From: Rhizobacter sp. OV335
GTDB taxonomy: Bacteria > Pseudomonadota > Gammaproteobacteria > Burkholderiales > Burkholderiaceae_C
DNA length: 64,000 nt
Direction: 5' to 3'
Assembly: GCF_900142965.1 (NCBI RefSeq)
Contig: NZ_FRCQ01000004.1
Location: 186,001 to 250,000 of the forward strand
Shown here piece after piece: positions 2,760 through 22,404 of the stretch. A program made the translations under genes and the position numbers. Each line of letters starts with the position of its first letter. Position 1 is the stretch's first letter. Below the pieces are notes generated by a model, which did not search any database, was not told where the DNA came from, and worked only from the letters and a program-made list of their open reading frames with translations.

Positions 2760-3773
2760 ATGCCCACGATCCTGCTGACCGGTGCCACCGGCTACATCGC
2801 CTCCCACACCTGGCTTGCGCTGCAGGCTGCCGGCTTCGACGTGGTCGGCGTCGACAACTTCGCGAACAGTTCACGCATCGTGCTGGACCGGCTGGCCGAA
2901 CTGGGCGGCCGCACGCCGGTGTTCATCGAGGCCGATGTCTGCGAGCGCGCGGCGATGGACGCGGTGTTCCGCCAGCACCGCATCGACGCGGTGGTGCATT
3001 TCGCGGCGCACAAGGCGGTCGGCGAATCGGCGCAGAAGCCGCTGGAGTACTACCGCAACAACATCGGCGGGCTGATCAATGTGGCGCAGGTGATGCAGGA
3101 CCACGGTTGCAAGCGGCTGGTGTTCAGCTCGTCGGCCACCGTCTACGGCCAGCCCGAGCGGCTGCCGATCACGGAGGATTCGGCGCTGTCGGCCACCAAC
3201 CCCTATGGCACCACCAAGCTGCTCGGCGAAGAGTTGCTGCGCGAGCTGGCGCGCTGCGACGCGGCCTGGCAGATCGCGTTCCTGCGCTACTTCAACCCGG
3301 TGGGCGCACACCCGAGCGGGCGCATCGGCGAAGACCCGCGCGGCGTGCCGAACAACCTGATGCCGTACGTGGCGCAGGTGGCGGTCGGCCAGCGCGAGTT
3401 CCTGCAGGTGTTCGGCGACGACTACGACACGCCCGACGGCACCGGCGTGCGCGACTACATCCATGTGATGGACCTGGCCGACGGGCATGTGGCGGCGCTG
3501 CGCTACCTGCTGGCGCAGCAGAAGTCGCTGACGGTCAACCTCGGGACAGGGCGCGGCTACAGCGTGCTGGAGGTGGTGAAGGCCTTCGAGCGGGCCAGCG
3601 GCAAGGCGGTTCCGTACCGCATCGTGCCGCGCCGGCCGGGGGATGTGGCGGCCTGCTATGCGGATCCGTCGAAGGCGCGCGAGCTGCTCGGGTGGTCGGC
3701 GACGCGCGACATCGACGCGATGTGCGTGGATGCGTGGCGGTGGCAGAGCGGGAATCCGCGCGGGTTCGAGTGA
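2760..3773 (+). CDS. galE: UDP-glucose 4-epimerase
   Basis: A 337-residue extended short-chain dehydrogenase that interconverts UDP-glucose and UDP-galactose in the cytoplasm. It has the NAD-binding GATGYIASH at the N-terminus, the SSSATVYG segment, and the catalytic Tyr-Lys pair in NPYGTTKLLGEELL. GalE signatures RYFNPVGAHPSG, GEDPRGVPNNLMPYVAQV and DGTGVRDYIHVMDLADGH are all present. It is divergent from ubiJ, sharing a 103-base intergenic region. Its product would feed surface-polysaccharide synthesis, in keeping with the next gene block, but it is not in that operon. Confidence 0.96.
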   Translation: MPTILLTGATGYIASHTWLALQAAGFDVVGVDNFANSSRIVLDRLAELGGRTPVFIEADVCERAAMDAVFRQHRIDAVVHFAAHKAVGESAQKPLEYYRNNIGGLINVAQVMQDHGCKRLVFSSSATVYGQPERLPITEDSALSATNPYGTTKLLGEELLRELARCDAAWQIAFLRYFNPVGAHPSGRIGEDPRGVPNNLMPYVAQVAVGQREFLQVFGDDYDTPDGTGVRDYIHVMDLADGHVAALRYLLAQQKSLTVNLGTGRGYSVLEVVKAFERASGKAVPYRIVPRRPGDVAACYADPSKARELLGWSATRDIDAMCVDAWRWQSGNPRGFE

Positions 3774-3965: not shown

Positions 3966-5789
3966 TCAGCCCGAGCGGGCCGTCAGCCGTCTTCCGATCG
4001 CCGCCACCACGCGCCGCCTTGCCGCTTCGCGCGAGAACGTGTGGTCGGCCTCGTCGATGAACTCCAGCGCGAGATCGCCGTTCTTGATCGCGCGCCGCGC
4101 CGTCTGGCGCGCACCGTCCTGCAGCATGTCCCAGCCGGGGTCGCCCGACGACACGATCAAGGTCACGTGCCGCTTCGCCGCGAACAGCTGCCGCAGCTGC
4201 CGTGACAGCAACGGCCCGCGCGACGGGAACAGCAGCTCGGTGATCGCGCTCACGCGCGAGGCCACCTGCTTGCGCAGGTGCGACAGCACCACCCCCGCGA
4301 GGTAGACCAGGTTCACCTGCCCGCGCAGCAGCTTCTTCCAGCTGTCGAGCCGGCGCATCGTGCCCTTGTAGTGCGCCACCGCCGAGAAGTGCTTCGTGTC
4401 GACCGCATCGCCCTCGACCCAGCGCCAGGTCAGCGGGTTGATCAGCACCAGCTCGCTGATCTGCGCCGCCTGCTCGACCAGCCCGGTCTGGAACGCGGTG
4501 TACGCGCCCGAGCACAAGCCCATCAGCACGAACTCGCGCACGCCGAAACGCTCGCGCAGGCTGTGCAGCACCTGCTGCGCATCGGGCACCGCACTGTCCG
4601 GGTAAGGATGGTTCTCGCGACCCGCTCCGCGCTGCACGCTGTCGCCCAGGCCCTCCAGGTCGCAGCGCACCGTCGGGAAACCGAGCGCGGCCAGCTCGCG
4701 CGCAAGCATCACGTACAGCCGGTTCGGGCCGACGTGGTGCACCGTGCCGGAGTTGAACAGCACGACCATCGGCCGCGTCGAATTGGAAACACCGACCTCC
4801 GCATCGGCCTGCACATGCAGCCCGAACAGCTGCCCCTCGGTGCCGAGCGCGCACAGCGTTTCGGTCAGCGCCACCGTGCGGCCATCGGCCGTCGCATGCG
4901 TGAAGCGCGCCTGCGTCGCCCCCTCCGGTGACGGCAACAGCGGCACCGCCGCCTCACGCGGCGCCGTCTGCGCCACCATCCACTGCACGATGCTGTCGAG
5001 CGCCTGGCGCGGCACGACGGTGTGCACCGGCTCGGCCATCATGTCGGCATAGCCGGCGCAGGCGATCGCATCGGTCGCGATGCCGAGCGTCAGCAGGTGC
5101 TCGCGCAACGCGTCTTCCTCGCCGATCAGGTCGTCGCGCGCGACCAGCAGCGCGCGGCCGCTGACGCGCAACGCCTCGCGCGTCAGTTGCACGGCCTTCA
5201 CGGCCTCCTGCGTCTCGCGGCTCATCAGGAAGCCCGCCGGCTCCAGCGGCGCACTCACCGGCCGCTGCCCGCCGCCGGCCGCCATGTCGAGCGCCTGCAT
5301 CTCGCGCACATGGCGCCGGCCCGAGGCACACACGTTCCACAGCACCAGCCAGTCGACCTCGCGCTGCGCGGCGACCAGCGCCGCGAGCGTCGCGCCCAGC
5401 CGCACGCCGAGCAGCCCGACGCGCGCGCTGCCGCTGAGCGACTGCGCGGCGGCGATCGCCGCATGCACATCGTCCTGCCAGCGCTGCAGCCGGCCGGCGT
5501 CGGTCTCCAGCCCCGGCGAATCGCCGGTGCCGTGGTAGTCGAAGCGCAGCGCCGGCACGCCGGAGCGCGCGAGGTCGTCGGCCAGGTGGCGCAGCGAGCG
5601 GTGGCCGTGCGCGTACTCGTAGCCCATCGGGTTGCAGATCACGACGACCGCGTCGCGGCGCGGCACCGCATCGGCCACGTGGTACCAGCCGAACAGCGGC
5701 TGCTCGGCGCTGCCGAGCATCAGCGGCTCGCGCCTCACCTCGGGGCGCCGCGCGGCGTCCGGCTGCAGCGGGATGTCGTCAGTCCGCAC
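3966..5789 (-). CDS. Tandem double alpha/beta-hydrolase with Arg and Cys at the nucleophile elbows
   Basis: 607 residues forming two alpha/beta-hydrolase domains in one chain (about 20-275 and 290-605). The first elbow reads G128-V-R-L-G, so the nucleophile position is Arg130 and the domain is probably not a hydrolase. The second elbow reads G424-L-C-S-G, placing Cys426 at the nucleophile position, with Asp550 (SSGDPGWD) and His583 (DEADHTFS) completing a likely Cys-Asp-His triad like that of dienelactone hydrolase. No signal peptide is seen. It resembles exosortase/EPS-associated hydrolases. Start: GTG at 5787-5789, overlapping the preceding GH2 stop by 11 bases; ATG 24 codons later is an alternative. 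As last gene of the operon it may move an acyl or aminoacyl group; the substrate is unknown. Confidence 0.85.
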   Translation of the reverse strand: MRTDDIPLQPDAARRPEVRREPLMLGSAEQPLFGWYHVADAVPRRDAVVVICNPMGYEYAHGHRSLRHLADDLARSGVPALRFDYHGTGDSPGLETDAGRLQRWQDDVHAAIAAAQSLSGSARVGLLGVRLGATLAALVAAQREVDWLVLWNVCASGRRHVREMQALDMAAGGGQRPVSAPLEPAGFLMSRETQEAVKAVQLTREALRVSGRALLVARDDLIGEEDALREHLLTLGIATDAIACAGYADMMAEPVHTVVPRQALDSIVQWMVAQTAPREAAVPLLPSPEGATQARFTHATADGRTVALTETLCALGTEGQLFGLHVQADAEVGVSNSTRPMVVLFNSGTVHHVGPNRLYVMLARELAALGFPTVRCDLEGLGDSVQRGAGRENHPYPDSAVPDAQQVLHSLRERFGVREFVLMGLCSGAYTAFQTGLVEQAAQISELVLINPLTWRWVEGDAVDTKHFSAVAHYKGTMRRLDSWKKLLRGQVNLVYLAGVVLSHLRKQVASRVSAITELLFPSRGPLLSRQLRQLFAAKRHVTLIVSSGDPGWDMLQDGARQTARRAIKNGDLALEFIDEADHTFSREAARRRVVAAIGRRLTARSG

Positions 5790-8238
5790 GGACGGTCACC
5801 GTCTCTCGCAGGTTCAGCGCACCGAGGTGCGCCTTGAACTTGCGCGGCGCGGCGTCCAGCGGACGAAAGCGCAGCGTGCGGCGCGACTGCGGCGCCAGGT
5901 GGAAATGCAAGTCGTCCACCGAGTAGCCGTCGCATTCGACGTGCAGCGCGTGGATGAGCGCGGTGCTCTCCAGCACCACCTCGACGCTGCCGCCGTCGAG
6001 GCGCCGTGCCTGCGCGGCCAGTGCACCGGCGCGCTGCGGCGGCAGGTTGAGCCCGTGCGGAAAGTGGAAGTCCTCGGCCAGCGTCTCACCCGCTTCGTTC
6101 TTCAGCCGCGCGACCGCCACGTCATGCTGCGGCGGCCCGAAGCGGTACGCATACGCGGTGTCGGCGAAGTGGCCGACCAGTGCATCGGCCTGCAGCGCGA
6201 GGCTCTCGTTCGCGGCCAGCATCACGCCGATGCTGCCGCCGGCGGTGCGCACCTGGCCGTCCTGGTACAGCGCGAACTCGACGCTGCCCGCGAACGGCGC
6301 GACACCCTCGTTGTGCACCTGCAGCTGCAGCCCGTCGAGCCCGCCGTCGGTGATCAGCACGGTGCGCGGCGCCCAGGCGCGCTTCAGCGCCCAGTACACC
6401 GCCTTCGGCCGGCCGGTGCTGTCGATCAGGCCCCAGCCGGCGCCCGGCCACAGGTCCTTCAGGAACCAGACCAGGCCGCCGCCGCAGGCGCTGCCCGGTG
6501 CGCGCCATTCGGCGAACACGCGCTTCAGCACCTCGCCGGTCACCGCGCGCGAGATCGCGAGGTAGCGCGCGATGTCGGTGCTGCGCAGCGCGACCGGATC
6601 GAGCCCGGTGAGCTCGCGCAGGTAGTGGTCGCGGATGTCCTCGAAATCCCAGCCGGCGCCGTTGTCGCGCGGCTGGCGCTGCTTCCACAGCGGGTGGTGC
6701 GGCGCGATCGTCGGGTGGCCGCCCATCAGCTCGATGGTCTCGGGCTCGGGCACGTGCGAGAAGCCGAGGCACTCGGTCGTGAACTTGACGCCCGCGTGCT
6801 TCGCGTCGCTGACCGGGCGTCGGTAGGCGCCGACCCCGTAGTAGTGCGAGATGCCGACGCCCACGTGGAAGGGCAGTGCGCCCTCGCACGGCGACGAGCG
6901 GAAGTACGGCACGCCGGCATGGCGGCTCGCGCAGCGCGCCGGCAGCGTCTCGCTGAAGAAATCGTTGCTCCACTCCGAGGCCGGCAGGCCGAGCATCGCG
7001 GCCTGCTGCTCGACCTCGCTGCCGCCGCAGTACGCGGCGATGCACGGGTGCGCCTGCAGGCGCTGGAGCTGCTGCGCGGCCTCACGCTCGATCTCGGCGC
7101 GGAAGGCTTCGTCGGCAACCGGGTAGTCCATGTTGGCGAACATGAAGTCCTGCCACACCAGGATGCCGAGCTCGTCGCACAGCGCGTAGAACGCGTCGGA
7201 CTCGTAGGTCATCGTGCCGCCGATGCGCAGCATGTTCAGGCCGCCGTCGCGCGCGAGCGTCAGCGTGCGGCGCAGTTGCGCCGGGTCGCCGTGCAAGCGC
7301 AGGAAATCGTCGGTGGTCCAGCAGGCGCCGCGGCAGAACACCGGCGAGCCGTTGACGTGGAACTGCACCAGGCCGTCGTCCCGCCGCACCTCGACCTGAC
7401 GGAAACCGATGCGGCCGCGGTCGATCGAATGCCATTGCGTGCCCTGGCGCAGTTCGATCGCGCAGTCGTGCAATGCCGGCGCGCCGTGCGTGTGCGGCCA
7501 CCACAGCGGCACATCGGGCAGCCGCAGATCGGCCGACAGCGTGTCGCCGTCGAGCGCGAGCGCATGAGTCTGGTCGCCGATGCGCAAGCGCGCCTCGGCC
7601 ACATCGCTGCCGGCCGTCAGCGTGGCGCTCAGCCGCAGCCGGGCCACGCCACCCGCGGCATCGCACTGCAGGTCGATCGATGCGAGGCCGCCCGGCGACA
7701 CCGTCTCCAGCCACACCGGTTTCCACACGCCGACCGGGTGGATCGGCGGCGTCCAGCCGGGGATGCGGCCGAGCAGCGTGGTGCGCACCCAGCGCAGGTT
7801 CTGCGCGTCGACCAGCGCGGTCTTCCAGCGCGGGCGCGGCTTGCGCGCGGCGAGTTCGGCGTCGAGCGAGCGGAAGCGGATGCGCAGCTCGTTGTCGGGC
7901 CGCAGCCGGCCGGTCACGTCGACCCGCTCGGTGGTGAACATGTTGCGGGTGCTCAGCACCGGCTCGTCATTCAGCCACACGTCGGCGATGCCGGCGAGGC
8001 CGTCGCAGCGCAGTTGCTGGCGGTCGCCGCTGCGCTGCGCAGGCGCCTTGAAGCGGCAGCGGTACCACCAGTCCTGCGTGTCGTAGCGACCATGTGGCGT
8101 GTCAAGCTCGACGCCCAGGCTCGCACCTACTGTGCCGAGTTCACGCACCGGCGCCCAGGCCAAGCCCTCAGCCGCACCCGCGGCGATCTCCCAGCCGCTG
8201 TCCAGTGCGATCGCCGAGTTCATGGCCGCGTGCGTCAC
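5779..8238 (-). CDS. Glycoside hydrolase family 2, beta-mannosidase-like
   Basis: 819 residues with GH2 architecture: a jelly-roll sugar-binding domain (about 40-190, with DVWLNDEPV), an immunoglobulin-like domain, a TIM barrel (about 310-620) and C-terminal beta domains. The barrel keeps the (N)MLRIGG, LVWQDFMFANMDYP and CGGSEVEQQ stretches; the Glu of CGGSE is at the acid/base position (usually CGNNE in beta-mannosidases) and the Glu of FTTECLGFS at the nucleophile position. No signal peptide is evident, so cytoplasmic action is expected. The GTG start at 8236-8238 forms a GTGA overlap with the DUF1839 stop; ATG at 8221-8223 is possible. Likely acts on a mannose-type beta-glycoside linked to the polysaccharide made by this cluster (inference). 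Confidence 0.88.
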   Translation of the reverse strand: MTHAAMNSAIALDSGWEIAAGAAEGLAWAPVRELGTVGASLGVELDTPHGRYDTQDWWYRCRFKAPAQRSGDRQQLRCDGLAGIADVWLNDEPVLSTRNMFTTERVDVTGRLRPDNELRIRFRSLDAELAARKPRPRWKTALVDAQNLRWVRTTLLGRIPGWTPPIHPVGVWKPVWLETVSPGGLASIDLQCDAAGGVARLRLSATLTAGSDVAEARLRIGDQTHALALDGDTLSADLRLPDVPLWWPHTHGAPALHDCAIELRQGTQWHSIDRGRIGFRQVEVRRDDGLVQFHVNGSPVFCRGACWTTDDFLRLHGDPAQLRRTLTLARDGGLNMLRIGGTMTYESDAFYALCDELGILVWQDFMFANMDYPVADEAFRAEIEREAAQQLQRLQAHPCIAAYCGGSEVEQQAAMLGLPASEWSNDFFSETLPARCASRHAGVPYFRSSPCEGALPFHVGVGISHYYGVGAYRRPVSDAKHAGVKFTTECLGFSHVPEPETIELMGGHPTIAPHHPLWKQRQPRDNGAGWDFEDIRDHYLRELTGLDPVALRSTDIARYLAISRAVTGEVLKRVFAEWRAPGSACGGGLVWFLKDLWPGAGWGLIDSTGRPKAVYWALKRAWAPRTVLITDGGLDGLQLQVHNEGVAPFAGSVEFALYQDGQVRTAGGSIGVMLAANESLALQADALVGHFADTAYAYRFGPPQHDVAVARLKNEAGETLAEDFHFPHGLNLPPQRAGALAAQARRLDGGSVEVVLESTALIHALHVECDGYSVDDLHFHLAPQSRRTLRFRPLDAAPRKFKAHLGALNLRETVTVRAD

Positions 8239-9206
8239 CCGTGCTGTCGACGCAGCTCGCCGATGCCTCGTGCCCAGGCCTCGCCCATCGCGTCGATCGG
8301 CGACAGGTCGAGCGCCTTCTTGCGCGCCATCGAGCGCGCGAGCTGGAACTGGAAGGCCTTCGCGGTCTGCGAGATCTGCGACACGTCGTCGGCCGCACTG
8401 CCCACGTCGACACCCTGCTCCGCGAGCCAGCGCAGGTAGGTCTCGGCCAGCTCGAAGCAGGCGCCGTACTGGCGCAGCGTCGCGAACGAATAGGTGTGGA
8501 AGACCGCGATGTCGGACTGCATCAGCCAGTCGAGGTCTTTCGCGAACTGCGTCTTGAAGCGCTCGAACGGGTTGGTCGCCGGCACGCGCGTCAGGTGCTT
8601 GCGCAGCAGCGCGAGCGAGCCGTCGACGAGTGCCGCGCCGGTCGGCGGCGTGAAGTTCGGCCGCGCCTTCAGGTACTCGATGTACGGCGGCAGCATGCGC
8701 TCATGCACCAGCCCATCGAGCTGGAACACGTCGCGGAAGTCGTCACCCGCCAGCGCGTAGAAGCCCTGGTTGTGGAAGTAGTCCATGCGACGCGCCTTCA
8801 CGTCGATCGCATTGACGCCCACCGTCGACTTGGTGTGCGCGAGCCGGTAGGCCGAGCCGGCGGTGTCCGGCAGGAACCACGAGTCCAGCTCGACCAGCAC
8901 CGGCCGGCCTTGCGCGACCTGGTCCTCGATGTGGTCGACCAGCGGCCGCCACACCGCGAGTTCCTGGATGTCGACGCCGTACAGGTCGTACAGGTCGCCA
9001 TCGGGGAACTTGAAGAAGGTCCACTGGTCGCCTTCGAAGTCGACGCCGAGCGTGAACGCGAGCGCCGGCACCGGGTCGTGGCCGAGCCCGTGCAGCAGCT
9101 CGATCAGCACGTCGGCGTAGCAGTTGGTCTCGGCCCAGGTGCGCGGCGCGGTGTGGATCGGGTGGCGCTGGAAGCTCGCCGGCTCGATCGGCAGGACACG
9201 TTTCAT
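8235..9206 (-). CDS. DUF1839 family protein
   Basis: 323 residues matching the uncharacterised DUF1839 family by its N-terminal TWAETNCYADVLIELLHGLG and by WTFFKFPDGDLYDLYG. It opens with a conserved Asn-Cys-Tyr and later has GRPVLVELDSWFLPDT and KSTVGVNAI, giving the look of a papain-like/C39-like fold (Cys, then His-Thr-Lys and Asp), though this is inference. The start at 9204-9206 is preferred over a TTG further upstream because GAGGG lies just ahead of it. It follows the amino acid:carrier protein ligase by 10 bases, a neighbourhood known from rhizobia, so it probably handles the carrier-bound aminoacyl group, possibly transferring it to an acceptor. Confidence 0.8.
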   Translation of the reverse strand: MKRVLPIEPASFQRHPIHTAPRTWAETNCYADVLIELLHGLGHDPVPALAFTLGVDFEGDQWTFFKFPDGDLYDLYGVDIQELAVWRPLVDHIEDQVAQGRPVLVELDSWFLPDTAGSAYRLAHTKSTVGVNAIDVKARRMDYFHNQGFYALAGDDFRDVFQLDGLVHERMLPPYIEYLKARPNFTPPTGAALVDGSLALLRKHLTRVPATNPFERFKTQFAKDLDWLMQSDIAVFHTYSFATLRQYGACFELAETYLRWLAEQGVDVGSAADDVSQISQTAKAFQFQLARSMARKKALDLSPIDAMGEAWARGIGELRRQHG

Positions 9207-9216
9207 GCGGCCCTCG

Positions 9217-10137
9217 TCAAGCCATCGCAAGCTGTTGGCGCACCTCGTGCGGCCAGCGCTTCGGGTCGAACCCGTGCGTCTTCAGCAGCGCGAGCGCGAT
9301 GCGTTCGAGCCCGAAGCCGATGCAGGCAGTGTGCGCCGGCGTGCCGTCGGCCTGCAGGATGTCGAACGAGATGCCGAAGTGGTCGAGGTGGTAGTTGCAC
9401 GAGGTGATCGCGGTCGGCTTGTCTTCCTTGCAGATCGGCACCACCAGTTCGTACTTCAGGTCCTGCTCGCGCTGCGTGGCCTTCATGATGCGCGCGCCGC
9501 GCCCGAAGAACGGATCGTCGGCCAGCACTTTCTTGACCGGCAGGCCCACCGATTCGAGGATGGCCTGGCCGCGCGCGAGCCAGTCGTTGCGGTGGTTCAG
9601 CGCCTGGTCGGGGGTGCCGAGGCGCACGAACTCGCGCTGGCGGAAGATCTGCATGCGCGCCGGATCGTCCGACGGCTCATGGCGGAACACGAAGGTCTTC
9701 AGGTCGACGACGCGGCCTTGCGCCGTCAGCGTGCCGGTGGCCGTCGGGTACAGCGGGTAGCAGGCGGCCGGCACCAGCATCACTTCGGCCGGCGTCAGCG
9801 AGGAGGTCCAGTCTTCCTTCGCCTCGAACTTGCCGAGCATGGCCTGGTGTTCTTTCTCGCCACCGAGGAAGCTGTGCACCGAGCCCATCAGGTCCGGGAA
9901 GTTGTTGATGTGGTCGATGCGCGCGTAGTGGGCCCGCGGAAAGATCGGCGGAAAGCGCATCACCTCGGCGTTCTGGAACGCACCTTCGCGCGTCACCAGG
10001 CCTTCGAACTGGTCGATGATGTTCTCGAAGGTGCCGCTGCGGCCGTAGACGCCGCGCACGCCCGAGGGGATCAGCAGGCCGGCCTCGATCAGCTCGGCCT
10101 GGTACTGCTTGTAGGGATCGTCGTGTTGGGTGCACAT
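9217..10137 (-). CDS. Amino acid:[acyl-carrier-protein] ligase (class II aaRS-like)
   Basis: 306 residues made only of a class II aminoacyl-tRNA-synthetase catalytic core, related to archaeal-type SerRS but lacking the tRNA-binding N-terminal coiled coil. Motif 2 is FRHEPSDD...FRQREFVRLG and motif 3 is GFGLERIALALL. Cys126 (PAACYPLYP), Glu169 (RQREF) and Cys272 (TACIGFG) correspond to the zinc ligands of characterised Bradyrhizobium and Agrobacterium enzymes. Those enzymes activate glycine or alanine with ATP and load it onto the phosphopantetheine arm of a neighbouring carrier protein rather than tRNA. The carrier (11381-11623) and DUF1839 gene are its operon partners. Which amino acid is used here cannot be read safely from the sequence. 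Confidence 0.93.
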   Translation of the reverse strand: MCTQHDDPYKQYQAELIEAGLLIPSGVRGVYGRSGTFENIIDQFEGLVTREGAFQNAEVMRFPPIFPRAHYARIDHINNFPDLMGSVHSFLGGEKEHQAMLGKFEAKEDWTSSLTPAEVMLVPAACYPLYPTATGTLTAQGRVVDLKTFVFRHEPSDDPARMQIFRQREFVRLGTPDQALNHRNDWLARGQAILESVGLPVKKVLADDPFFGRGARIMKATQREQDLKYELVVPICKEDKPTAITSCNYHLDHFGISFDILQADGTPAHTACIGFGLERIALALLKTHGFDPKRWPHEVRQQLAMA

Positions 10138-10158
10138 GGCAGGAATCCTTGTGGTTCT

Positions 10159-11331
10159 TCAGCGTTGCACGATCTGCATCGTGGCGCTCTGCCCGAGGAT
10201 GCGGTCGTTGTTGACCATCAGCGCCGCGCCATACGCATCGCGCAGGTGCCGGCCCAGCGTCAGCTTCGAATCGTTGCGGTAGCCCTGGATGCCGCAGATC
10301 AGCATCGCCTTGCCGACCACCTCGACCACGAACTGCGAGGCCGTCAGCTTCAGGTTGTTGATATTGATCGCGAAGCTGAAGCCCGAGTAGGCCTCGGGAT
10401 CGTTGGCGATCAGCACGTCGTGGTACTCGCGCAGCGTCTGGTAGACGCCGCCGCGCATCGAGAACAGCACCGTGTCGAGCTCCGCCAGGCGCGTCGCCGA
10501 GATCGGCGTCACGCTCGGGTTCTTGCGCGCTTCGGCCCGCACCGCGCTGCGCGCGCGGCTCACCGCGTCGATCGACAGGCCCAGCCACAGCGAGGCCCAC
10601 ACGACGTGCGAGAACGGGTGCATCGTGCGGCGGTGGATGTCGGCGTACGGCTGCGGCAGGATCTGCTCCACTCGCCCTTGCGACTTCAGCACGAAGCCTT
10701 CGCTGCAGGTGCCGCGGAAGCCCAGCGTGTCCCAGCCCGAGAGCTTGGTCAGCTCGTAGTCGCTCTTGCGCACCAGCACCTGCACCTGGTCGTTGCGCGC
10801 CGCGTCTTCCGACTTGCGGCAAGTCACCAGGATCGCGTCCGCGGTGGCGCCGTACGAGATCACCGGCGTCTGCTTCTCGAGCGTGAAGCGGTCACCGGTC
10901 ACCTGCACCGCGCACAGGCTGGAGCGCACGTCGCCGCCGATGCCCAGCTCGGTGGTGGCCGACGCGATCAGGTACTGCTGCTCGACCATCTCGCGGGCAT
11001 AGCCGCGGAAGAACTCGGAGTCGAGCGCGTGGTGCACGATGCAGCCGACCTGGATCTGGTGCATCGCGAAGATCATCGCGGTCGAGCCGCAGTACTGGCC
11101 CAGCACCTCGCAGATCTGCGACAGGTCGCTGATGTTCAACCCCATGCCGCCGTACTCCACCGGCACGTAGCAGCTCAGCAGCTTCTGCTGCTTCAGCGCC
11201 GCATAGGCCTCGTGCGGAAAGCGCGCGTCGCGGTCCACCTCGGCGGCGTGCGGCGCGATGATGTCGCGGCCGATGCCGTGCAGCCCTTCGAGCAGGGCAG
11301 GCAGTTGGGGGCTGAGTCGGGTGGGTTGCAT
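10159..11331 (-). CDS. Acyl-CoA dehydrogenase-like flavoprotein
   Basis: 390 residues with the acyl-CoA dehydrogenase fold: helical N-domain (AAEVDRDARFPHEAYAALKQQKLLSCYVP), the middle beta-domain with TTELGIGGDVRSS and the family-typical LSGWDTLGFRGTCSEGFVL, and a C-terminal helical FAD domain. The gene lies between the carrier protein and the aminoacyl:carrier ligase. This recalls flavoenzymes that oxidise carrier-bound prolyl groups in antibiotic pathways, so it may oxidise the aminoacyl-S-carrier intermediate, or an unrelated acyl chain on the same carrier (inference). The ATG at 11329-11331 is chosen; a TTG four codons upstream is possible. Confidence 0.88.
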   Translation of the reverse strand: MQPTRLSPQLPALLEGLHGIGRDIIAPHAAEVDRDARFPHEAYAALKQQKLLSCYVPVEYGGMGLNISDLSQICEVLGQYCGSTAMIFAMHQIQVGCIVHHALDSEFFRGYAREMVEQQYLIASATTELGIGGDVRSSLCAVQVTGDRFTLEKQTPVISYGATADAILVTCRKSEDAARNDQVQVLVRKSDYELTKLSGWDTLGFRGTCSEGFVLKSQGRVEQILPQPYADIHRRTMHPFSHVVWASLWLGLSIDAVSRARSAVRAEARKNPSVTPISATRLAELDTVLFSMRGGVYQTLREYHDVLIANDPEAYSGFSFAININNLKLTASQFVVEVVGKAMLICGIQGYRNDSKLTLGRHLRDAYGAALMVNNDRILGQSATMQIVQR

Positions 11332-11380
11332 GGTGTGTTCCAAACGCGGAGGTCGCCAGGGATGGCGGCAGTGCAGCGCT

Positions 11381-11623
11381 TCAGGCGCTGACGAGTTCTT
11401 CGATGGCTTCGGACAGCGAGCGGATGCTCTCGAAGGTCTTGCGGCCGAGCATCTTGTCGGAGAACTCGATGTCGAACTCGTCTTCGAGCGCCAGCATCAG
11501 GTTGACCGTCGTCAGCGAGGTCAGCCCGGCGGCGTACAGGTCGCTGTCTTCGGTCAGCGTGGCGGCGTCCACCGACAGGCGGGCGTGCTTGGCGATGACG
11601 GAACGGATCTTGTCGGTGTGCAT
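11381..11623 (-). CDS. Acyl/aminoacyl carrier protein
   Basis: 80 residues, the size of a stand-alone carrier protein: four-helix pattern with an acidic helix II and the phosphopantetheine attachment serine at Ser36 in YAAGLTSLTTV. The residue before the Ser is Thr rather than the Asp of canonical DSL, as is common in the carrier proteins that partner with amino acid:carrier ligases. AGGA is well placed before the ATG at 11621-11623. It is the first of the aminoacyl-carrier set and follows the UDP-HexNAc epimerase by 70 bases in the same direction. No phosphopantetheinyl transferase is in the window, so the housekeeping one must activate it. Confidence 0.93.
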   Translation of the reverse strand: MHTDKIRSVIAKHARLSVDAATLTEDSDLYAAGLTSLTTVNLMLALEDEFDIEFSDKMLGRKTFESIRSLSEAIEELVSA

Positions 11624-11693
11624 GTCGATGTCCTGCAGTTCAAGGGAAAGGGTTCTGCCGAGCGGCCCGTGCCGCGCAGCGTCGTGAAAGAAT

Positions 11694-12752
11694 TCAGACG
11701 GTCTGGCGGGCGCGCTGCACGTACCAGCCGATCGCCTCGAGCAGCCCGGCGCGCACGTCGTGGCTGGGTTGGTAGCCGAGCAGCCGGCGCGCCTTCGACA
11801 CGTCGGCCAGCGAGTGGCGCACGTCGCCGGCGCGGAACGAGGCGTATTGCGGCGGCTCGACTCGCAGCGCCGGGCATTCGCGCAGCAGCGCCTCGGCGAG
11901 CGCGCCGTGCAGCTGGTTCAGCGTGGTGCGGTCGCCCACCGCCACGTTGAACACCTGGTTCGACGCCTCGGGCTCCTCGCAGAGGCCGGCGCGCAGGTTG
12001 GCCTGCACCGCGTTCGTCACGAAGCAGAAGTCGCGCGAGGTCTCGCCGTCGCCGTTGATCACGCAGCGCGAGCCTTCGAGCATCTGCGCCGCCCAGCGCG
12101 GGATCACCGCGGCATAGGCGCCGTTCGGGTCCTGGCGCGGGCCGAACACGTTGAAGTAGCGCAGCCCGATCGTCGACAGCCCGTAGCAGCGGCCGAACAC
12201 CTCGGCATACAGCTCGTTCAGGTACTTGGTGACGGCGTACGGCGACAGCGGCCGGCCGATGGTGTCCTCGACCTTCGGCAGCGTCGGCGAATCGCCGTAC
12301 GTCGAACTCGACGCGGCATAGACGAAGCGCTTCACGCCGGCAGTGCGCGCGGCCTCGAGCATCGTCAGGAAGCCGGTCGCGTTCGAGCGGTGCGTGGTCA
12401 GCGGGTCCTTGATGGAACGCGGCACCGAGCCGAGCGCGGCCTGGTGCAGCACGATCTCGGCGCCGTCGCAGGCCTGCGCGCAGCTCGCGAGGTCGGCGAT
12501 GTCGCCGCGGATGAAGGTGTGGCGCGACCAGGCCTCTTCGCCGACGAGGCGGCGCACCTCATCGAGGTTGGCCTGGTGGCCGGTCGAGAAGTTGTCGAGG
12601 CTCGTGACCTGCTGGCCGGCGCGCAGCAGGTTCTCCAGCAGGTGCGAGCCGATGAAGCCGGCGCTGCCGGTGACGAGCCAGCGGCGCGGCGCGGCGCGCA
12701 GCTGCGCGAGCACCGGGTCGAGGAATTCGTTGGTCGTCACGTTGGCTTCCAT
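11694..12752 (-). CDS. UDP-N-acetylglucosamine 4-epimerase family (WbpP/TviC-like)
   Basis: 352-residue extended SDR epimerase. NAD-binding [15 protein letters not shown], substrate loop [22 protein letters not shown] and the Tyr-Lys pair in [15 protein letters not shown] are present, with [21 protein letters not shown] typical of the WbpP/TviC branch that acts on N-acetylated UDP-hexosamines. Paired with the dehydrogenase before it, it would give UDP-GalNAc-uronic acid, the sugar of Vi-type acidic polymers. The ATG at 12750-12752 shares one base with the upstream stop (TGATG), implying translational coupling. Confidence 0.92.
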
Positions 12753-14032
12753 CACAGGCGCCAGACGTTCAGGCCACGCGCGCGCAAGGCTTTCGCATCG
12801 GCCTGGCTCTTCACGTCCACATACAGCCCGTTCGGCACCAGCTTCGCGACGAAGTCGTCGATCGGGCGGGCCTTCAACGCCTTGTGCGCGACGGCGGCCA
12901 CCACGGCCTGCGCCTGCGGCAGCGCATCCCAGGCCACCAGGTCGACACCGTACTCGTGCTTCGCCTCGTCGGCCGCGGCCACCGGGTCGTGCACGTGCAC
13001 CGTCACGCCGTAGCTCTCGAGCTCGCGCACCACGTCGATCACCTTCGAGTTGCGCAGGTCCGGGCAGTCTTCCTTGAAGGTCAGGCCCAGCACGATGACG
13101 TCGGCGCCTTTCACCTGGAAGCCGGCCTGGATCAGGTTCTTGATGGTCTGCTCGGCCACATACTTGGCCATGCCGTCGTTGATGCGGCGCCCGGCCAGGA
13201 TGACCTGCGGGTGATACCCCAGGCGCTCGGCCTTGTGCGTCAGGTAGTACGGGTCGACGCCGATGCAATGCCCGCCGACCAGGCCCGGCCTGAACGGCAG
13301 GAAGTTCCACTTCGTGCCGGCGGCTTCCAGCACCTCGAGCGTGTCGATGCCGATGCGGTGGAAGATCAGCGAAAGCTCGTTGACGAGCGCGATGTTCAGG
13401 TCGCGCTGGGTGTTCTCGATCACCTTCGCGGCCTCGGCCACCTTGATGCTGGTGGCCTTGTAGACGCCGGCGGTGATGACGCTGCCGTACATCTCGGCGA
13501 CCAGCTTCAGCGTGTCCGGCGTGTCGCCCGACACCACCTTGGTGATGGTCGTCAGCGTGTGCAGCTTGTCGCCCGGGTTGATGCGCTCGGGGGAATATCC
13601 GACGAAGAAATCCTGCTTCCACTTGAGGCCGGATTCGCGCTCGATGATCGGAATGCAGACCTCTTCGGTCGCGCCCGGGTAGACGGTGGATTCGAAGACG
13701 ATGGTCGCGCCGCGCTTCAGGTTGCGGCCGACCGAGGTGCTGGAGCCCACCAGCGGCGACAGGTCGGGGTTGTGGGCGTCGTCCACCGGCGTCGGCACCG
13801 CGACGACGATGAAATCGGCCTCTTTCAGCGCGGCGGGATCGGTGGTGGGGTGCAGCTGGCTCGCGGCCTTCAGCGCCTCGGTGCTGACTTCACCGGTCGG
13901 GTCGATGTGTTCGCGGTATGCGGCGATTTTGGCGGCCGACAAATCAAACCCGATGGTCTTGTATTTCTTGCCGAATTCAACTGCCAGCGGCAATCCGACA
14001 TACCCCAGGCCGACGATAGCAACGGTGGTCAT
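12752..14032 (-). CDS. UDP-N-acetyl-hexosamine 6-dehydrogenase (TviB/WbpO-like)
   Basis: 426-residue nucleotide-sugar dehydrogenase that oxidises C6 of UDP-GlcNAc or UDP-GalNAc to the uronic acid in two NAD+-dependent steps. It has the N-terminal [16 protein letters not shown] Rossmann loop, VAVPTPVD, and the catalytic cysteine in [12 protein letters not shown]; the C-terminal NAD-binding domain has [19 protein letters not shown]. The length and [13 protein letters not shown] motif match the TviB/WbpO group rather than UDP-glucose dehydrogenases. It is the first gene of the long minus-strand operon that ends at 3966; its upstream region is the 673-base divergent control region. Confidence 0.94.
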
Positions 14033-14705: not shown

Positions 14706-17459
14706 ATGTCCCCGACCCCGATCTCCGCCCTCTCTTGTGTCTCGAAGTATCTGACGCTGTTCGCGCTCGGTGCGGCCCTCGCGGCCTGCGGTGGCAAGGG
14801 CGATGACGCCGCCGCCCCTTCCCCCGAACCGCAGATGTCGGTGCTGTCGATCAACCGCGTCGGCCAGGGCAGCATCGCATCGACGCCGAACGGCATCGAC
14901 TGCGGCACCGACTGTTCCGGCTCGTACGCGAAGGACACCGAGGTCACGCTGCATGCCGCGGCGGCCCAGGGCAACCAGTTCGCCGGCTGGAGCGGCGTCG
15001 GCATCGACTGCGCAGGCACCGGCGATTGCAGCGTGATGCTCGACCAGTCGAAGTCGCTGGTCGCGACCTTCAGCACCGTCAATGCAGCCGAGTACCCGCT
15101 CGACGTGGCGATCGCCGGCTCCGGAAGCGTCGCCGGCACCGCGCCGTTCTCGTGCAGCAGCGCCACCGACTGCGGCGGCACCTACACCGCCGGCACCGTC
15201 GTCACGCTGACGGCCACGCCCGCCTCCGGCTACACCGTCGGCGCATGGACCGTCAACGGCAGCACCTGCAGCGGCAGCACCTGCCAGGTCACGATGAGCG
15301 CGGCGCGCAACGTCAGCGTCAGCTTCACGGCCGTCGCGGTGCCGACCTATTCGCTCGGCGTCTCGGTCACCGGTTCCGGCACCGTCAGCTCTTCGCCGGC
15401 CGGCATCTCCTGCGGCAGCACCTGCGCGCACAGCTACAACCAGAACACCGTCGTCACGCTGAGCGCCGCGCCGGCCAGCGGCTATTCGTTCACCGGCTGG
15501 AGCGGCGCGGGCTGCACCGGCACCAACACCTGCGTGGTGACGATGTCGGCCGCGCGCACGGTCGCTGCCACCTTCACCGCGATCCCGGCCAGCAGCTTCG
15601 CGCTGACCACCACCGTGACCGGCTCCGGCCAGGGCACGCTGACGTCGAACCCGTCCGGCATCAACTGCCCGACCACCTGCAGCAGCACCGTCACCTCCGG
15701 CACCAACGTCACGTTGACGGCCGCCAGCGGCAGCACCTCGACCTTCAACGGCTGGAGCGGCGCTTGCGCGGCCACCGGCACGGTGACGGCCACCGGCGGC
15801 AGCTGCACCGTGAAGGTCAGCGCCGCGACGCAGGCCGGCGCCGTGTTCACGCTGAACACCTACGCGCTGGCCGTCACCAAGGTGGGCAGCGGCACGGTCG
15901 CGTCGAGCGGCGGCAACATCGCCTGCGGCAGCACCTGCAGCGCGAGCTTCAACGCCGGCACCGCCGTCACGCTGACCGCCACGCCGGCCACCGGCTACAC
16001 CTTCACCTCCTGGGGCGGCGCCTGCTCGGGCAGCGGCAGCTGCGCGGTCACGATGAACGCCGCGAAGTCGGTCAGCGCGACCTTCACCGCGATCAGCACC
16101 GGCGGCGGTGGTGGTGGCGGGGGCACCAGCGGCAAGAGCTGGTTCGTCGCGACCACCGGCAGCGACAGCGCGGCCGGCACGCTGGCAGCGCCGTTCAAGA
16201 GCATCACGAAGGCAGTCGGCGTCGCGACCGCGGGCGACATCATCGAGGTGCGCGCCGGCACCTACTCCGAAGCGGTGGTGATCCGCACCGCCGGCACCTC
16301 CACCGCCCGCATCACGATGCGCGGCTACAACGGCGAGCGCCCGGTGCTGCAGCGCACCGGCGCCGGCCCGACGATCTATTTCTACAACAGCGCCTGCGAC
16401 GAAGACGCCATCGGCAGCGGCACCGGCAACACCGACTGCTTCGCCAGCTGGTGGACGATCCAGGGCCTGGAAGTGCGCGGCAGCACGACCGGCGGCGACG
16501 ACGGCAACGTGATCAAGATCGACACCGCGAAAGTGCGCATCCAGGGCAACACGCTGTGCTGCAGCGTCGCCGACATCGTCAAGCTGGTGCGCACCGCGAA
16601 TGACGTCGAGGTGCTGGACAACGAGATCTACCAGAGCAGCAGCGTCGTGACGCCGGGCACCAATGCGCAGGGCGTGGACATCGTCGGCGCCAACAACACC
16701 CGCGTGGCCGGCAACTACGTGCACGACGTGCCCGATTTCGGCATGTACGCCAAGGGCAACGCGCGCAACACGGTCTTCGAGAACAACCTGCTCTACAACA
16801 TCGGGCGCAGCGACAACGGCCACGCGATCATGCTCGGCCAGGAGACCGACACCGATCGCCTGGTCGACGGCGTCTACGAGAGCTACGACGGCATCGTGCG
16901 CAACAACGTGGTCGTCAACGCCACCTGGGCCTGCGTCGCGACCTCGTCGTCGTCGAACGTGCGCATCTACAACAACAGCTGCTACAACACCGCCACCGCC
17001 GGCCAGGGCTCGATCTTCGTGTCGAACGAGTCGGAGATCGGCACCAAGGGCGTCAACATCGAGATCTACAACAACATCATCTACGGCTCGGCCGGACGCC
17101 CGCTGATCAAGGTGAACGCCGACGCGCTGGCCGATTTCTCGACACTGCGCATCGACGGCAACATCTACTGGGTGACCGGCGGCGCGCCGACCTTCGTGCT
17201 GAAGGACAACAGCGTGTCGGCGTCGCTGTGGGCCCTGCAGTACGCGACCGCGAGCTCCGGCCGCACCGACACCAGCCGCATCGTCGACCCGAAGTACGCC
17301 AGCACCGCCGTGACCGGCGCGACCAGCCGGCCGCTGACGCTGTCGACCGGCAGCCCGGCGATCAACACCGGTGTCGCGACCTCGCTGGTCACGACGGACT
17401 ACATCGGCACCGCTCGACCGCTGAACGGCAAGATCGACGTCGGCGCTTACGAGTACTGA
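14706..17459 (+). CDS. Lipoprotein with five InlB-like repeats and a right-handed beta-helix domain
   Basis: 917 residues. A lipoprotein signal ends in LGAALAAC, so the mature protein is anchored in the cell envelope. Residues about 44-468 hold five repeats of some 75-85 residues of the divergent InlB B-repeat type (GSGTVSSSPAGISCG ... GWSGAGC ... VTMSAARTV.ATF), each with four Cys that could form disulfides outside the cytoplasm. A poly-Gly linker follows, then a parallel beta-helix (about 475-917) opening with SWFVATTGSDSAAGTL.APFKSITKAV and ending GKIDVGAYEY, the fold of polysaccharide lyases and epimerases. Its closest partner is the paralogue at 20704. It probably binds or trims an extracellular polysaccharide; catalytic residues were not identified. 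Confidence 0.85.
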   Translation: MSPTPISALSCVSKYLTLFALGAALAACGGKGDDAAAPSPEPQMSVLSINRVGQGSIASTPNGIDCGTDCSGSYAKDTEVTLHAAAAQGNQFAGWSGVGIDCAGTGDCSVMLDQSKSLVATFSTVNAAEYPLDVAIAGSGSVAGTAPFSCSSATDCGGTYTAGTVVTLTATPASGYTVGAWTVNGSTCSGSTCQVTMSAARNVSVSFTAVAVPTYSLGVSVTGSGTVSSSPAGISCGSTCAHSYNQNTVVTLSAAPASGYSFTGWSGAGCTGTNTCVVTMSAARTVAATFTAIPASSFALTTTVTGSGQGTLTSNPSGINCPTTCSSTVTSGTNVTLTAASGSTSTFNGWSGACAATGTVTATGGSCTVKVSAATQAGAVFTLNTYALAVTKVGSGTVASSGGNIACGSTCSASFNAGTAVTLTATPATGYTFTSWGGACSGSGSCAVTMNAAKSVSATFTAISTGGGGGGGGTSGKSWFVATTGSDSAAGTLAAPFKSITKAVGVATAGDIIEVRAGTYSEAVVIRTAGTSTARITMRGYNGERPVLQRTGAGPTIYFYNSACDEDAIGSGTGNTDCFASWWTIQGLEVRGSTTGGDDGNVIKIDTAKVRIQGNTLCCSVADIVKLVRTANDVEVLDNEIYQSSSVVTPGTNAQGVDIVGANNTRVAGNYVHDVPDFGMYAKGNARNTVFENNLLYNIGRSDNGHAIMLGQETDTDRLVDGVYESYDGIVRNNVVVNATWACVATSSSSNVRIYNNSCYNTATAGQGSIFVSNESEIGTKGVNIEIYNNIIYGSAGRPLIKVNADALADFSTLRIDGNIYWVTGGAPTFVLKDNSVSASLWALQYATASSGRTDTSRIVDPKYASTAVTGATSRPLTLSTGSPAINTGVATSLVTTDYIGTARPLNGKIDVGAYEY

Positions 17460-20584: not shown

Positions 20585-20703
20585 CTTGAAGGATGCGGCG
20601 GCCACCCTGAGTGAGGGGGTGGGCCGGCGCAGGGCCACGGCCTTGTCAGACAATCGGGACTCGCCCGGGTATCGCCCGGGCGCGGTCGTTTTCCGAGGTC
20701 TCC

Positions 20704-22404
20704 GTGGTCATCACCAGAATCCAGCAGTTCGCGGCAGCCGCCGCATTCGTCGTCGTCGGCCTGGCCGGGTGCAGCGGAGGCGGTGGCGGCAGTTCCAGTG
20801 ACGGCGGCAACGGCGGCGAGCCGAGCGGACCGCAGGTCACGCTGCAGGCACACGTCGACGGCTCCGGCAGCATCACCTCGGCGGTGGCCGGGCTGGGCTG
20901 CAGCAGCGACTGCAGCGTCTCGCTGACCCAGGGCACCAGCTTCGTGCTGAACGCCGTGCCGGGCACCGGCTACGTGTTCAGCGGCTGGGGCGGCGCCTGC
21001 AGCGGCACCGGGGGCTGCACCGTGACGATGAGCGCGGCCGCGACGGTGAGCGCGAGCTTCACGCCCGGCGGCAGCTCCACCGGCAAGAGCTGGTTCGTCG
21101 CCACCACCGGCAGCGACGGCGCGGCCGGCACGCTGGCGGCACCGTTCATGACCATCACGAAGGCCGTCGGTGTCGCGACCGCCGGCGACACCATCGAAGT
21201 GCGTGCCGGCAACTACACCGAGGCGGTGATCATCCGCACCGCCGGCACCTCGACGGCCCGCATCACGCTGCGCGGCTACACCGCCGACCTGCCCGCGCGC
21301 CCGGTGCTGCAGCGCGCCGGCACCGGCCCGACGATCTACTTCTACAACGACGCCTGCGATGAAGACACCGTCGGCACCGCCAGCGGCAATGTCGACTGCT
21401 TCGCCAGCTGGTGGACGGTGCAAGGCCTCGAGGTGCGCGGCAGCACGACCGGTGGCGACGACGGCAACGTGATCAAGATCGACACCGCGAAGGTGCGCAT
21501 CCAGGGCAACAAGCTGTGCTGCAGCGTCGCCGACATCGTCAAGCTGGTGCGCACCGCGAATGACGTGGAAGTGCTGGACAACGAGATCTTCCAGAGCGTC
21601 GGCACCGTGACCCCCGGCAGCAACGCGCAGGGCATCGACATCGTCGGCGCCAACAACACCCGCGTGGCCGGCAACTACGTGCACGACGTGCCCGACTTCG
21701 GCATGTACGCGAAGGGCAATGCGCGCAGCACGATCTTCGAGAACAACCTGCTGGTCAACATCGGCCGTGCCGACAACGGCCACGCGATCATGCTGGGCCA
21801 GGAGACCGATTCGGACCGGCTGGCCGACGGCCGCTACGAGAGCTACGACGGCATCGTGCGCAACAACGTCGTGGTGAACGCCACCTGGGCCTGCGTCGCG
21901 ACCTCGTCGTCGTCGAACGTGCGCATCTACAACAACAGCTGCTTCAACACGGCCACCGCCGGCCAGGGCTCGATCTTCCTGTCCAACGAATCGGAAGTGC
22001 AGCAGGCCGGCACCAACGTCGAGATCGTCAACAACATCATCTACGGCGCGGCGGGCCGGCCGGTGATCAAGGTCAACGATGATGCGCTGACCGACTTCGC
22101 GACGCTGCGCATCAGCGGCAACATCTACTGGACGAGCAACGGCGCGCCGACCTTCTCGCTGAAGGGCACGGACGTGCCGGCGGGGCAGTGGTCGACGCTG
22201 TACAACACCATCACCGGCCTCACCGATGCGAGCCGCGTGCTCGACCCTCAGTTCGCGACCACCGGCGGCGGCACCCCGTTGACGCTGAAGGCCACGAGCC
22301 CGGCCATCAACACCGGCGTGCCGACCGCGCTGGTGGCGAAGGATTTCCTCGCCACGGCGCGGCCGCAGGGCGGCAAGATCGATGTTGGCGCTTATGAATA
22401 CTGA
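20704..22404 (+). CDS. Lipoprotein with one InlB-like repeat and a beta-helix domain (paralogue of 14706)
   Basis: 566 residues from the GTG at 20704, chosen because GAGG (20695-20698) sits five bases upstream and it gives a proper lipoprotein signal (VITRIQQFAAAAAFVVVGLAGC). A Gly/Ser linker, a single InlB-like repeat (about 46-121) and the beta-helix domain (about 128-566) follow. Long stretches of the beta-helix are almost identical to the 14706 protein, including IKIDTAKVRIQGN and VKLVRTANDVEVLDNEI, at DNA level too. This shows a relatively recent duplication or gene conversion. It is the third gene of the plus-strand lipoprotein block and 119 bases after the second. Confidence 0.85.
   Translation: MVITRIQQFAAAAAFVVVGLAGCSGGGGGSSSDGGNGGEPSGPQVTLQAHVDGSGSITSAVAGLGCSSDCSVSLTQGTSFVLNAVPGTGYVFSGWGGACSGTGGCTVTMSAAATVSASFTPGGSSTGKSWFVATTGSDGAAGTLAAPFMTITKAVGVATAGDTIEVRAGNYTEAVIIRTAGTSTARITLRGYTADLPARPVLQRAGTGPTIYFYNDACDEDTVGTASGNVDCFASWWTVQGLEVRGSTTGGDDGNVIKIDTAKVRIQGNKLCCSVADIVKLVRTANDVEVLDNEIFQSVGTVTPGSNAQGIDIVGANNTRVAGNYVHDVPDFGMYAKGNARSTIFENNLLVNIGRADNGHAIMLGQETDSDRLADGRYESYDGIVRNNVVVNATWACVATSSSSNVRIYNNSCFNTATAGQGSIFLSNESEVQQAGTNVEIVNNIIYGAAGRPVIKVNDDALTDFATLRISGNIYWTSNGAPTFSLKGTDVPAGQWSTLYNTITGLTDASRVLDPQFATTGGGTPLTLKATSPAINTGVPTALVAKDFLATARPQGGKIDVGAYEY

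Follow-up and report, generated by a model that had tools for sequence, protein, structure and literature searches.

What becomes of an amino acid once it has been loaded onto a carrier protein? Ligases of the Bll0957 family, which resemble seryl-tRNA synthetases, load Gly or Ala on carrier proteins, and what they load it for has, to our knowledge, stayed open; nor was an answer to its purpose found in the literature, among the matches listed by a search that left subscription papers mostly outside. The question is raised by a 64-kb stretch of DNA from Rhizobacter sp. OV335 (called 'the window' below, at its full length), in which eight intact open frames occupy the minus strand from 14032 to 3966. 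Six of these genes, encoding a carrier protein, an acyl-CoA-dehydrogenase-like flavoprotein, a ligase, a DUF1839 protein, a GH2 glycosidase and a less constant double hydrolase, form a conserved unit, the arrangement of which is far beyond chance, since dozens of loci repeat the same set. The reading that we favour, and for which the balance of probability is about even, is that they constitute a self-contained aminoacyl-transfer cassette, in which DUF1839 would hand the carrier-bound aminoacyl group to an amine, probably that of an amino sugar. The eight frames are as follows:

12752..14032, minus strand: nucleotide-sugar 6-dehydrogenase, TviB-like, a local partner outside the conserved six-gene set (TIGR03026, 385 bits, cut-off 190)
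11694..12752, minus strand: NAD-dependent sugar epimerase, TviC-like, also a local partner, its ATG start lying inside the TGATG overlap
11381..11623, minus strand: carrier protein (acyl carrier protein, ACP) of 80 residues with phosphopantetheine serine S36, core (PP-binding; NF005480, 108 bits, cut-off 72)
10159..11343, minus strand: acyl-CoA-dehydrogenase-like flavoprotein (ACAD), core (Pfam/NCBIfam)
9217..10137, minus strand: amino acid:[acyl-carrier-protein] ligase, seryl-tRNA-synthetase-like, core (NF005479, 443 bits, cut-off 357)
8235..9230, minus strand: DUF1839, proposed papain-fold carrier-dependent aminoacyl transferase (Cys37), core (PF08893, 408 bits, cut-off 22.5)
5779..8238, minus strand: GH2 glycosidase, beta-mannosidase-like, core, with E408 and E489 present and a signal peptide not evident
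3966..5789, minus strand: double alpha/beta-hydrolase, found in many cassettes and not in all, with GxRxG in its N-terminal half (Arg at the nucleophile place) and Cys426 in its C-terminal half

The number and common strand of these genes, their order and the three overlaps between them (TGATG, GTGA and 11 bases) had been given in a preliminary description of this DNA, and all are exact in the window sequence. The listed DUF1839 frame opens with a TTG at 9230, and an ATG is present at 9206. A scan for promoters and terminators found no promoter-like site, and one terminator-like site where 4.6 were expected. The genome from which the window comes measures 6.9 Mb, and the ligase that it encodes shares 99% identity with the one in Rhizobacter sp. 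Root1238.

The composition of the set was established from two kinds of search. One seeded with the ligase returned 42 loci besides the window, the record titles of which name Proteobacteria, Acidobacteria, Planctomycetes, Verrucomicrobia, Gemmatimonadota, Abditibacteriaceae and Bacteriovorax (L011 is titled as a Klebsiella pneumoniae metagenome bin, and its gene content suggests that the bin is mislabelled). Clustering of the 43 loci gave GH2 and the ligase in 40 each, ACAD in 39, DUF1839 and the ACP in 35 each, the double hydrolase in 33 and a TviB-like dehydrogenase in 8; these tallies, in which the window itself (L001) was dropped, are lower bounds, as a number of contigs are cut and as the gene caller retained the ligase in 40 of 43 loci although it was through the ligase that they had been found. 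Most often the genes run ACP-ACAD-ligase-DUF1839-GH2, the hydrolase standing at one end or the other. Searches with DUF1839 alone, made to avoid bias from ligase seeding, found it in 16 of the 398 Pseudomonadota genomes that were sampled (among them that of the window), in 13 of 150 genomes of the window's family, in 2 of 149 genomes from the phylum of G012 (the already known G012 being one of them), and on 59 of 72,556 plasmid records, the hosts of which include Rhizobium, Azospirillum and Mycetohabitans.

Among the DUF1839-found loci with flanks, 32 of 36 hold the complete five-gene core: 15 of 15 loci, 11 of 11 plasmid records (chosen by us out of the best 40 of the 59) and 6 of 10 same-family loci, a count that excludes G528, the broken G432 and two series of short stretches, L044-L060 and L089-L097, many of which belong to the same genomes. 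In G432 the DUF1839 match (contig C68, 36995-37171) is a short piece with an internal stop codon, adjoining a full-length ligase. One of the four exceptions, L144, has no GH2 match on a contig of 12.4 kb; the other three, L141, L142 and L143, are described below. Six same-family loci are built as two divergent halves, ACAD-ligase-DUF1839 and ACP-GH2 (joined by the hydrolase in five), and the cassette genes therefore stay together despite a changed order; among the same-family genomes listed without DUF1839, a ligase match was found in 0 of 16. The double hydrolase varies most in its presence, with matches in 9 of 15 DUF1839-found loci and 6 of 11 plasmid records. The six-gene set is not named in the literature found, among the matches listed. 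From a similar arrangement in a named Rhizobium record, we infer that f51 (L065-L069 and L071) is from Rhizobiaceae.

The first two components of the proposed route are the ligase and its carrier. The ligase matches the Bll0957 structures 4h2w (3.9e-77) and 3mey (3.3e-76) and belongs to the same family, and a cassette ligase reaches 344 bits against the solved structure; the window's residues C126, E169 and C272, which we take to be the zinc ligands, line up with Bll0957 and show at least 95% conservation, in keeping with the preliminary description of an intact zinc site. The phosphopantetheine serine S36 of the carrier is likewise at least 95% conserved (35 aligned members). Bll0957 itself, a Bradyrhizobium protein, is not known to be followed by an acceptor step, and it is this step that is proposed in the cassette.

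For that acceptor step, the evidence comes from prediction and alignment of DUF1839. A model built with AlphaFold2 from 32 relatives (mean predicted local-distance difference test score, pLDDT, of 93) was compared with the PDB using Foldseek, and all 12 chains returned at E <= 0.001 belong to three systems: CtaG (8 chains), the AziU2-U3 complex (3) and a CcbD mutant with its carrier domain (1; 9dks), with template-modelling scores of 0.55-0.67 for the predicted model. According to the available part of one study, CcbD and LmbD couple a carrier-tethered proline-type acid, in amide linkage, to a thiooctose at its amino group, and CcbD does so by a ping-pong mechanism with a Cys-His-Glu arrangement (PMC12945683); CtaG has been proposed, in the portion of its report that was accessible, as a peptidyl transferase between carriers (PMC6772006). 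In an alignment of 32 DUF1839 sequences (A1, from which near-duplicates, cut sequences and the majority of frames of uncertain start were excluded), Cys37, which begins the helix 37-48 of the model, is kept in 30 of 32, and H132 and H153 are invariant. The two sequences that lack the cysteine, in L063 and L064, come from genomes that carry a second DUF1839 with a TNC motif; for L064 this lies 4-5 kb away on the same stretch (genes at 7401-8378 and 12235-13494, of which the cassette copy lacks the Cys motif). So nearly invariant a cysteine suggests a covalent acyl intermediate, and DUF1839 is likely, on the evidence of its modelled fold, to be the aminoacyl transferase. The preliminary description had proposed an aminoacyl-carrier module with DUF1839 as a possible transferase, and the likeness of the predicted fold to those of CcbD, CtaG and AziU2-U3 speaks for it.

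Part of this picture is already in print. DUF1839 has been placed among papain-like proteins with a Cys-Thr/Ser-His arrangement, and a guess from gene context had it processing cell-wall glycans in an acyl-CoA-dependent manner (both from the available part of PMC10318531); that published model puts Thr/Ser in the position of the histidine. A relation of DUF1839 to CcbD, CtaG or AziU2-U3 was not found in print, among the matches listed.

Taken in order, the reaction might run as follows. The ligase would adenylate a small amino acid (Gly or Ala, as in the Bll0957 family) and load it on the dedicated carrier, and the ACAD-like flavoprotein may then act on, or read, the carrier-bound group. DUF1839 would accept the aminoacyl group on Cys37 and then acylate an amine with it, that amine most likely belonging to an amino sugar, in the way that CcbD works during celesticetin synthesis. 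The presence together of the ligase, the carrier and a CcbD-fold enzyme points to an amide between a small amino acid and an amine; the carrier thioester activates the amino acid's own carboxyl, so that the acceptor should be an amine or a hydroxyl rather than a carboxylate, and an amino sugar is the most likely one because of the CcbD likeness, the GH2 enzyme and the glycan genes described below. The GH2 enzyme, apparently cytoplasmic, could free or trim a beta-linked sugar of the acceptor, and the Cys hydrolase could carry out a second acyl transfer or clear mis-loaded carrier. In a simple hydropathy test of 33-40 aligned members per family, signal peptides and membrane helices were not evident, apart from two ACPs with a hydrophobic N-terminal stretch and one ligase frame and two hydrolases with a single helix-like stretch. 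The six proteins look soluble by this test, and the reaction is for that reason placed inside the cell, where it would act on a sugar precursor, a glycoside or a lipid-linked oligosaccharide made and exported by other genes. Within the window's lineage, the glycan would draw a HexNAc-uronate (N-acetylhexosamine-derived) nucleotide sugar from the local TviB/TviC-like pair.

The remaining enzymes were examined for their catalytic residues. The ACAD-like protein has V-N-N-D-R-I in its C-terminal motif and no Glu there, N379-D380-R381 being invariant in 33 sequences; we take the usual base of such enzymes to be a Glu in a C-terminal Y-E-G-T region, other base positions also being known. It could conceivably be a nitrososynthase, although the single-sequence matches to DnmZ and nitrososynthases were absent from the seven best of a profile search, all of them ACADs (this search gave nothing at E <= 1e-36, and the threshold was then 1e-19). 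The nearest relatives of the GH2 enzyme are beta-mannosidases; at its acid/base position 408, 35 of 38 sequences have Glu and the other 3 Asp, and the nucleophile Glu489 is present in 38 of 38 (two of 40 rows being cut). A role in anti-phage defence was rejected, PADLOC having given a single partial match, of the GH2 enzyme to about 320 of the 1791 positions of a CARF/beta-galactosidase profile (74.5 bits). In its two halves the double hydrolase is similar to the exosortase-A-associated hydrolases 1 (TIGR03100, 140 bits against a cut-off of 168) and 2 (TIGR03101, 92 against 203), under the cut-off in both cases. The exosortase/PEP-CTERM link prompted by these matches was weakened when 10 of 20 cassette genomes gave no exosortase match at E <= 0.001; the exosortase of the window's genome, moreover, is on another contig, near polysaccharide-export genes (that region, L061, holds EpsE-type export, EpsI-type and Rhs-type genes).

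Comparison with characterized systems indicates where the cassette would be conventional and where it would differ. Lincosamide synthesis activates its amino acid with an adenylation domain of the nonribosomal peptide synthetase type, whereas in the cassette a tRNA-synthetase-like ligase does so, and a flavoprotein, a GH2 enzyme and a double hydrolase are added. Common to both would be a carrier-bound amino acid and a papain-like enzyme (which in the case of CcbD joins it to an amino sugar) of predicted similar overall fold, as far as the accessible descriptions of CcbD/LmbD with the carrier domains CcbZ/LmbN go; DUF1839 and CcbD are about 13% identical, and their active-site order may differ. 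The Dlt system D-alanylates teichoic acids and the Alm system glycylates lipid A, with transfer at or beyond the membrane. The cassette would work like these in that a ligase charges a carrier with a small amino acid, and it differs in using another ligase superfamily and in having enzymes that look cytoplasmic; the DltA/AlmE ligases load Ala or Gly on the carrier protein (PMC12930378, in the part available). With regard to the Vi antigen, the likeness of the window's pair to TviB and TviC lies under the curated equivalog cut-offs (NF011729, 502 bits against 592, for the dehydrogenase; NF011728, 408-424 bits against 760, for the epimerase).

The connection to glycans was assessed by counting assembly genes in the neighbourhood. 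GT4, sugar-phosphate transferase, nucleotide-sugar dehydrogenase and flippase genes, taken together, were found on 9 of 15 cassette stretches as against 3 of 38 controls from the same contigs (p = 1.7e-4), with the GT4, flippase and other profiles having been seeded from cassette-locus proteins and grown on all loci of the analysis, which favours the cassette loci; when L065-L067, the source of the flippase seeds and of one GT4 seed, are left out, the figures become 6 of 12 and 3 of 38 (p = 0.003). The 38 controls, positioned by hand and not at random at about 10, 50 and 90% of the contigs and away from the cassette, cover 14 of the 15 genomes. Among the ligase loci longer than 15 kb, a glycan-assembly match occurs in 15 of 27, the window counted in. 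In 5 of 20 cassette genomes, representing three lineages, the ligase has a UDP-sugar dehydrogenase no more than 10 kb away (0.17 expected), and a sugar-phosphate transferase is found within 20 kb of it in 4 of the 20 (0.33 expected) and within 10 kb in 3 of 15 DUF1839-found genomes (0.22 expected), these expectations assuming random placement, with related genomes non-independent and short contigs able to hide neighbours. A TviB-like dehydrogenase stands within 10 kb in four lineages (the window; L004, on the other strand; L009; and L028, where it passes the TviB cut-off with 645 bits). In L065 (14364-17696) and L067 (2960-6313), single frames of 1111 and 1118 residues carry a flippase-like membrane part followed by the double hydrolase, with 12-13 hydrophobic segments and, in L065, a Pfam Polysacc_synt_3 match; in L066 the flippase match is outside the hydrolase. 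The record of Rhizobium NLR16a has a hydrolase of similar length preceded by a GT4 gene.

The preliminary description, which had seen in the window a HexNAc-uronate polysaccharide operon, is thus upheld as to a tie with glycan genes, and sets in relatives do sometimes co-occur with sugar-nucleotide genes; as a rule for the cassette, though, the HexNAc-uronate operon fails, given that TviB-like genes occur in 8 of 43 loci and that 16 of 20 genomes have no same-contig sugar-phosphate transferase within 20 kb of the ligase. Even for the window itself the term 'polysaccharide operon' is not borne out: the GT4, sugar-phosphate-transferase and flippase profiles match nothing in its 64 kb, Pfam having covered part of its frames.

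That absence is one of several observations that weigh against aminoacyl transfer to a glycan amino sugar. Twelve of the 27 ligase loci over 15 kb, including all seven from Planctomycetes, have no glycan-assembly match, and several plasmid cassettes adjoin genes of other kinds (nif, propionate and other catabolic genes, regulators with repABC, transposases, amino-acid transport). AziU2-U3 makes an aziridine, not an amide, and the top Foldseek match is a chain of that complex, the output being silent on which AziU chain. The identity between DUF1839 and its fold matches is only 10-16%, with root-mean-square deviations of 4.7-6.7, and a DUF1839 profile found no match among PDB sequences at E <= 5. 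The Cys-Thr/Ser-His order of the published DUF1839 model, in the part of the source available, differs from that of CcbD (PMC10318531). In genome G428 (L143), ACP-ACAD-DUF1839-GH2-hydrolase is kept with no ligase (NF005479) match beside the genes or elsewhere in the genome, where a different loading enzyme may serve; and two same-family genomes (L141 and L142) have a divergent DUF1839 outside any complete cassette, L142 with a weak hydrolase match despite the missing core.

A polymer product is plausible, and sequence cannot separate it from a small molecule. The same chemistry could yield a small secreted metabolite (an aminoacyl amino-glycoside, serving as a lincosamide-like signal or antibiotic) instead of a cell-surface glycan, which we regard as somewhat unlikely, if the most serious of the competing explanations. 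The nearest fold relatives of DUF1839 serve small-molecule pathways, the non-glycan neighbours of the plasmid cassettes fit such a product, and the flippase-type domain fused to the hydrolase belongs to a superfamily that also holds drug exporters. Yet the genes enriched around the cassette are of polymer type, including initiating sugar-phosphate transferases and GT4; one plasmid cassette is flanked by GT4 genes, and another has GT9 and sulfotransferase genes some kb upstream; and neither exporters nor resistance genes were seen to recur among those flanking frames that carry an annotation, many carrying none.

Two further readings would assign the transfer to another enzyme, and we consider both improbable. 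Once the flavoprotein has acted, DUF1839 might alter or cyclise the amino acid on the carrier, in the manner of AziU2-U3, which form an aziridine; that complex heads the Foldseek list, and an ACAD-like gene adjoins DUF1839 in 32 of 32 complete sets. The same fold and similar scores, however, connect it to CcbD, a transferase, and to CtaG, a proposed one (each according to partially available sources), and the nearly invariant cysteine again suggests a covalent acyl intermediate. By the second reading, to which we attach similarly little probability, the C-terminal half of the double hydrolase would be the aminoacyl transferase, and DUF1839 would do something else. Its Cys426 is present in 31 of 32 sequences with a residue there (Ser in L022), D550 and H583 are invariant in an alignment of 32, and at two loci the hydrolase is fused to a flippase-like domain; the N-terminal half, for its part, has Arg at the nucleophile place in 30 of 31 (Gly in L043). 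But no hydrolase match lies on the fetched stretch in 6 of 15 DUF1839-found loci and 5 of 11 from plasmids (a comparison that depends on the choice of DUF1839 as query), and its fold neighbours, among the best 50 listed, are mostly esterases and lipases. Finally, the preliminary description had the aminoacyl group moved to the uronic acid or another position; a version in which it is amide-bound to the carboxyl of a uronic acid is highly improbable even with TviB/TviC-like genes adjoining the cassette, as the thioester activates the amino acid's carboxyl and not its amine, a uronate would need its own activation, no uronate-activating enzyme was recognised among the annotated genes, and TviB-like genes are in just the 8 of 43 loci.

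Some neighbouring genes were recorded in passing. In the window, a GalE gene (UDP-glucose 4-epimerase, 432 bits; 2760-3773, plus strand) converges on the end of the operon, and large plus-strand frames at 14706-17459 and 20611-22404 contain InlB-type repeats and right-handed beta-helix domains, with a 908-residue frame without a Pfam match between them. Elsewhere, the cassette of L079 (a Rhizobium gallicum plasmid) begins a few hundred bases past nif-cluster genes and an annotated exopolysaccharide production repressor; radical-SAM genes stand beside the cassettes of L065, L067 and L069 (the last also with a class II synthetase-like gene), and annotated efp, epmA and lysine-2,3-aminomutase-like genes beside that of L084. 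The upstream radical-SAM and lysyl-synthetase-type genes of some loci were set aside as mere neighbours.

For the aminoacyl-transfer cassette, these analyses provide a function proposal for DUF1839, a domain of unknown function, and the fixed partner set, together with a plausible acceptor enzyme, reduces the question to a simple assay containing an aminoacyl-ACP, DUF1839 and an amino sugar. A general route in several phyla, by which a carrier charged by a tRNA-synthetase offshoot would allow DUF1839, as an enzyme of the kind used in antibiotic assembly, to aminoacylate amino sugars of surface glycans within the cell, prior to export by a flippase that is in some cases fused to the hydrolase of the cassette, is put forward more tentatively, as a possibility that we hold to be short of probable. 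If it is true, a surface-glycan amino-acid route would be the missing purpose of amino acid:carrier ligases.

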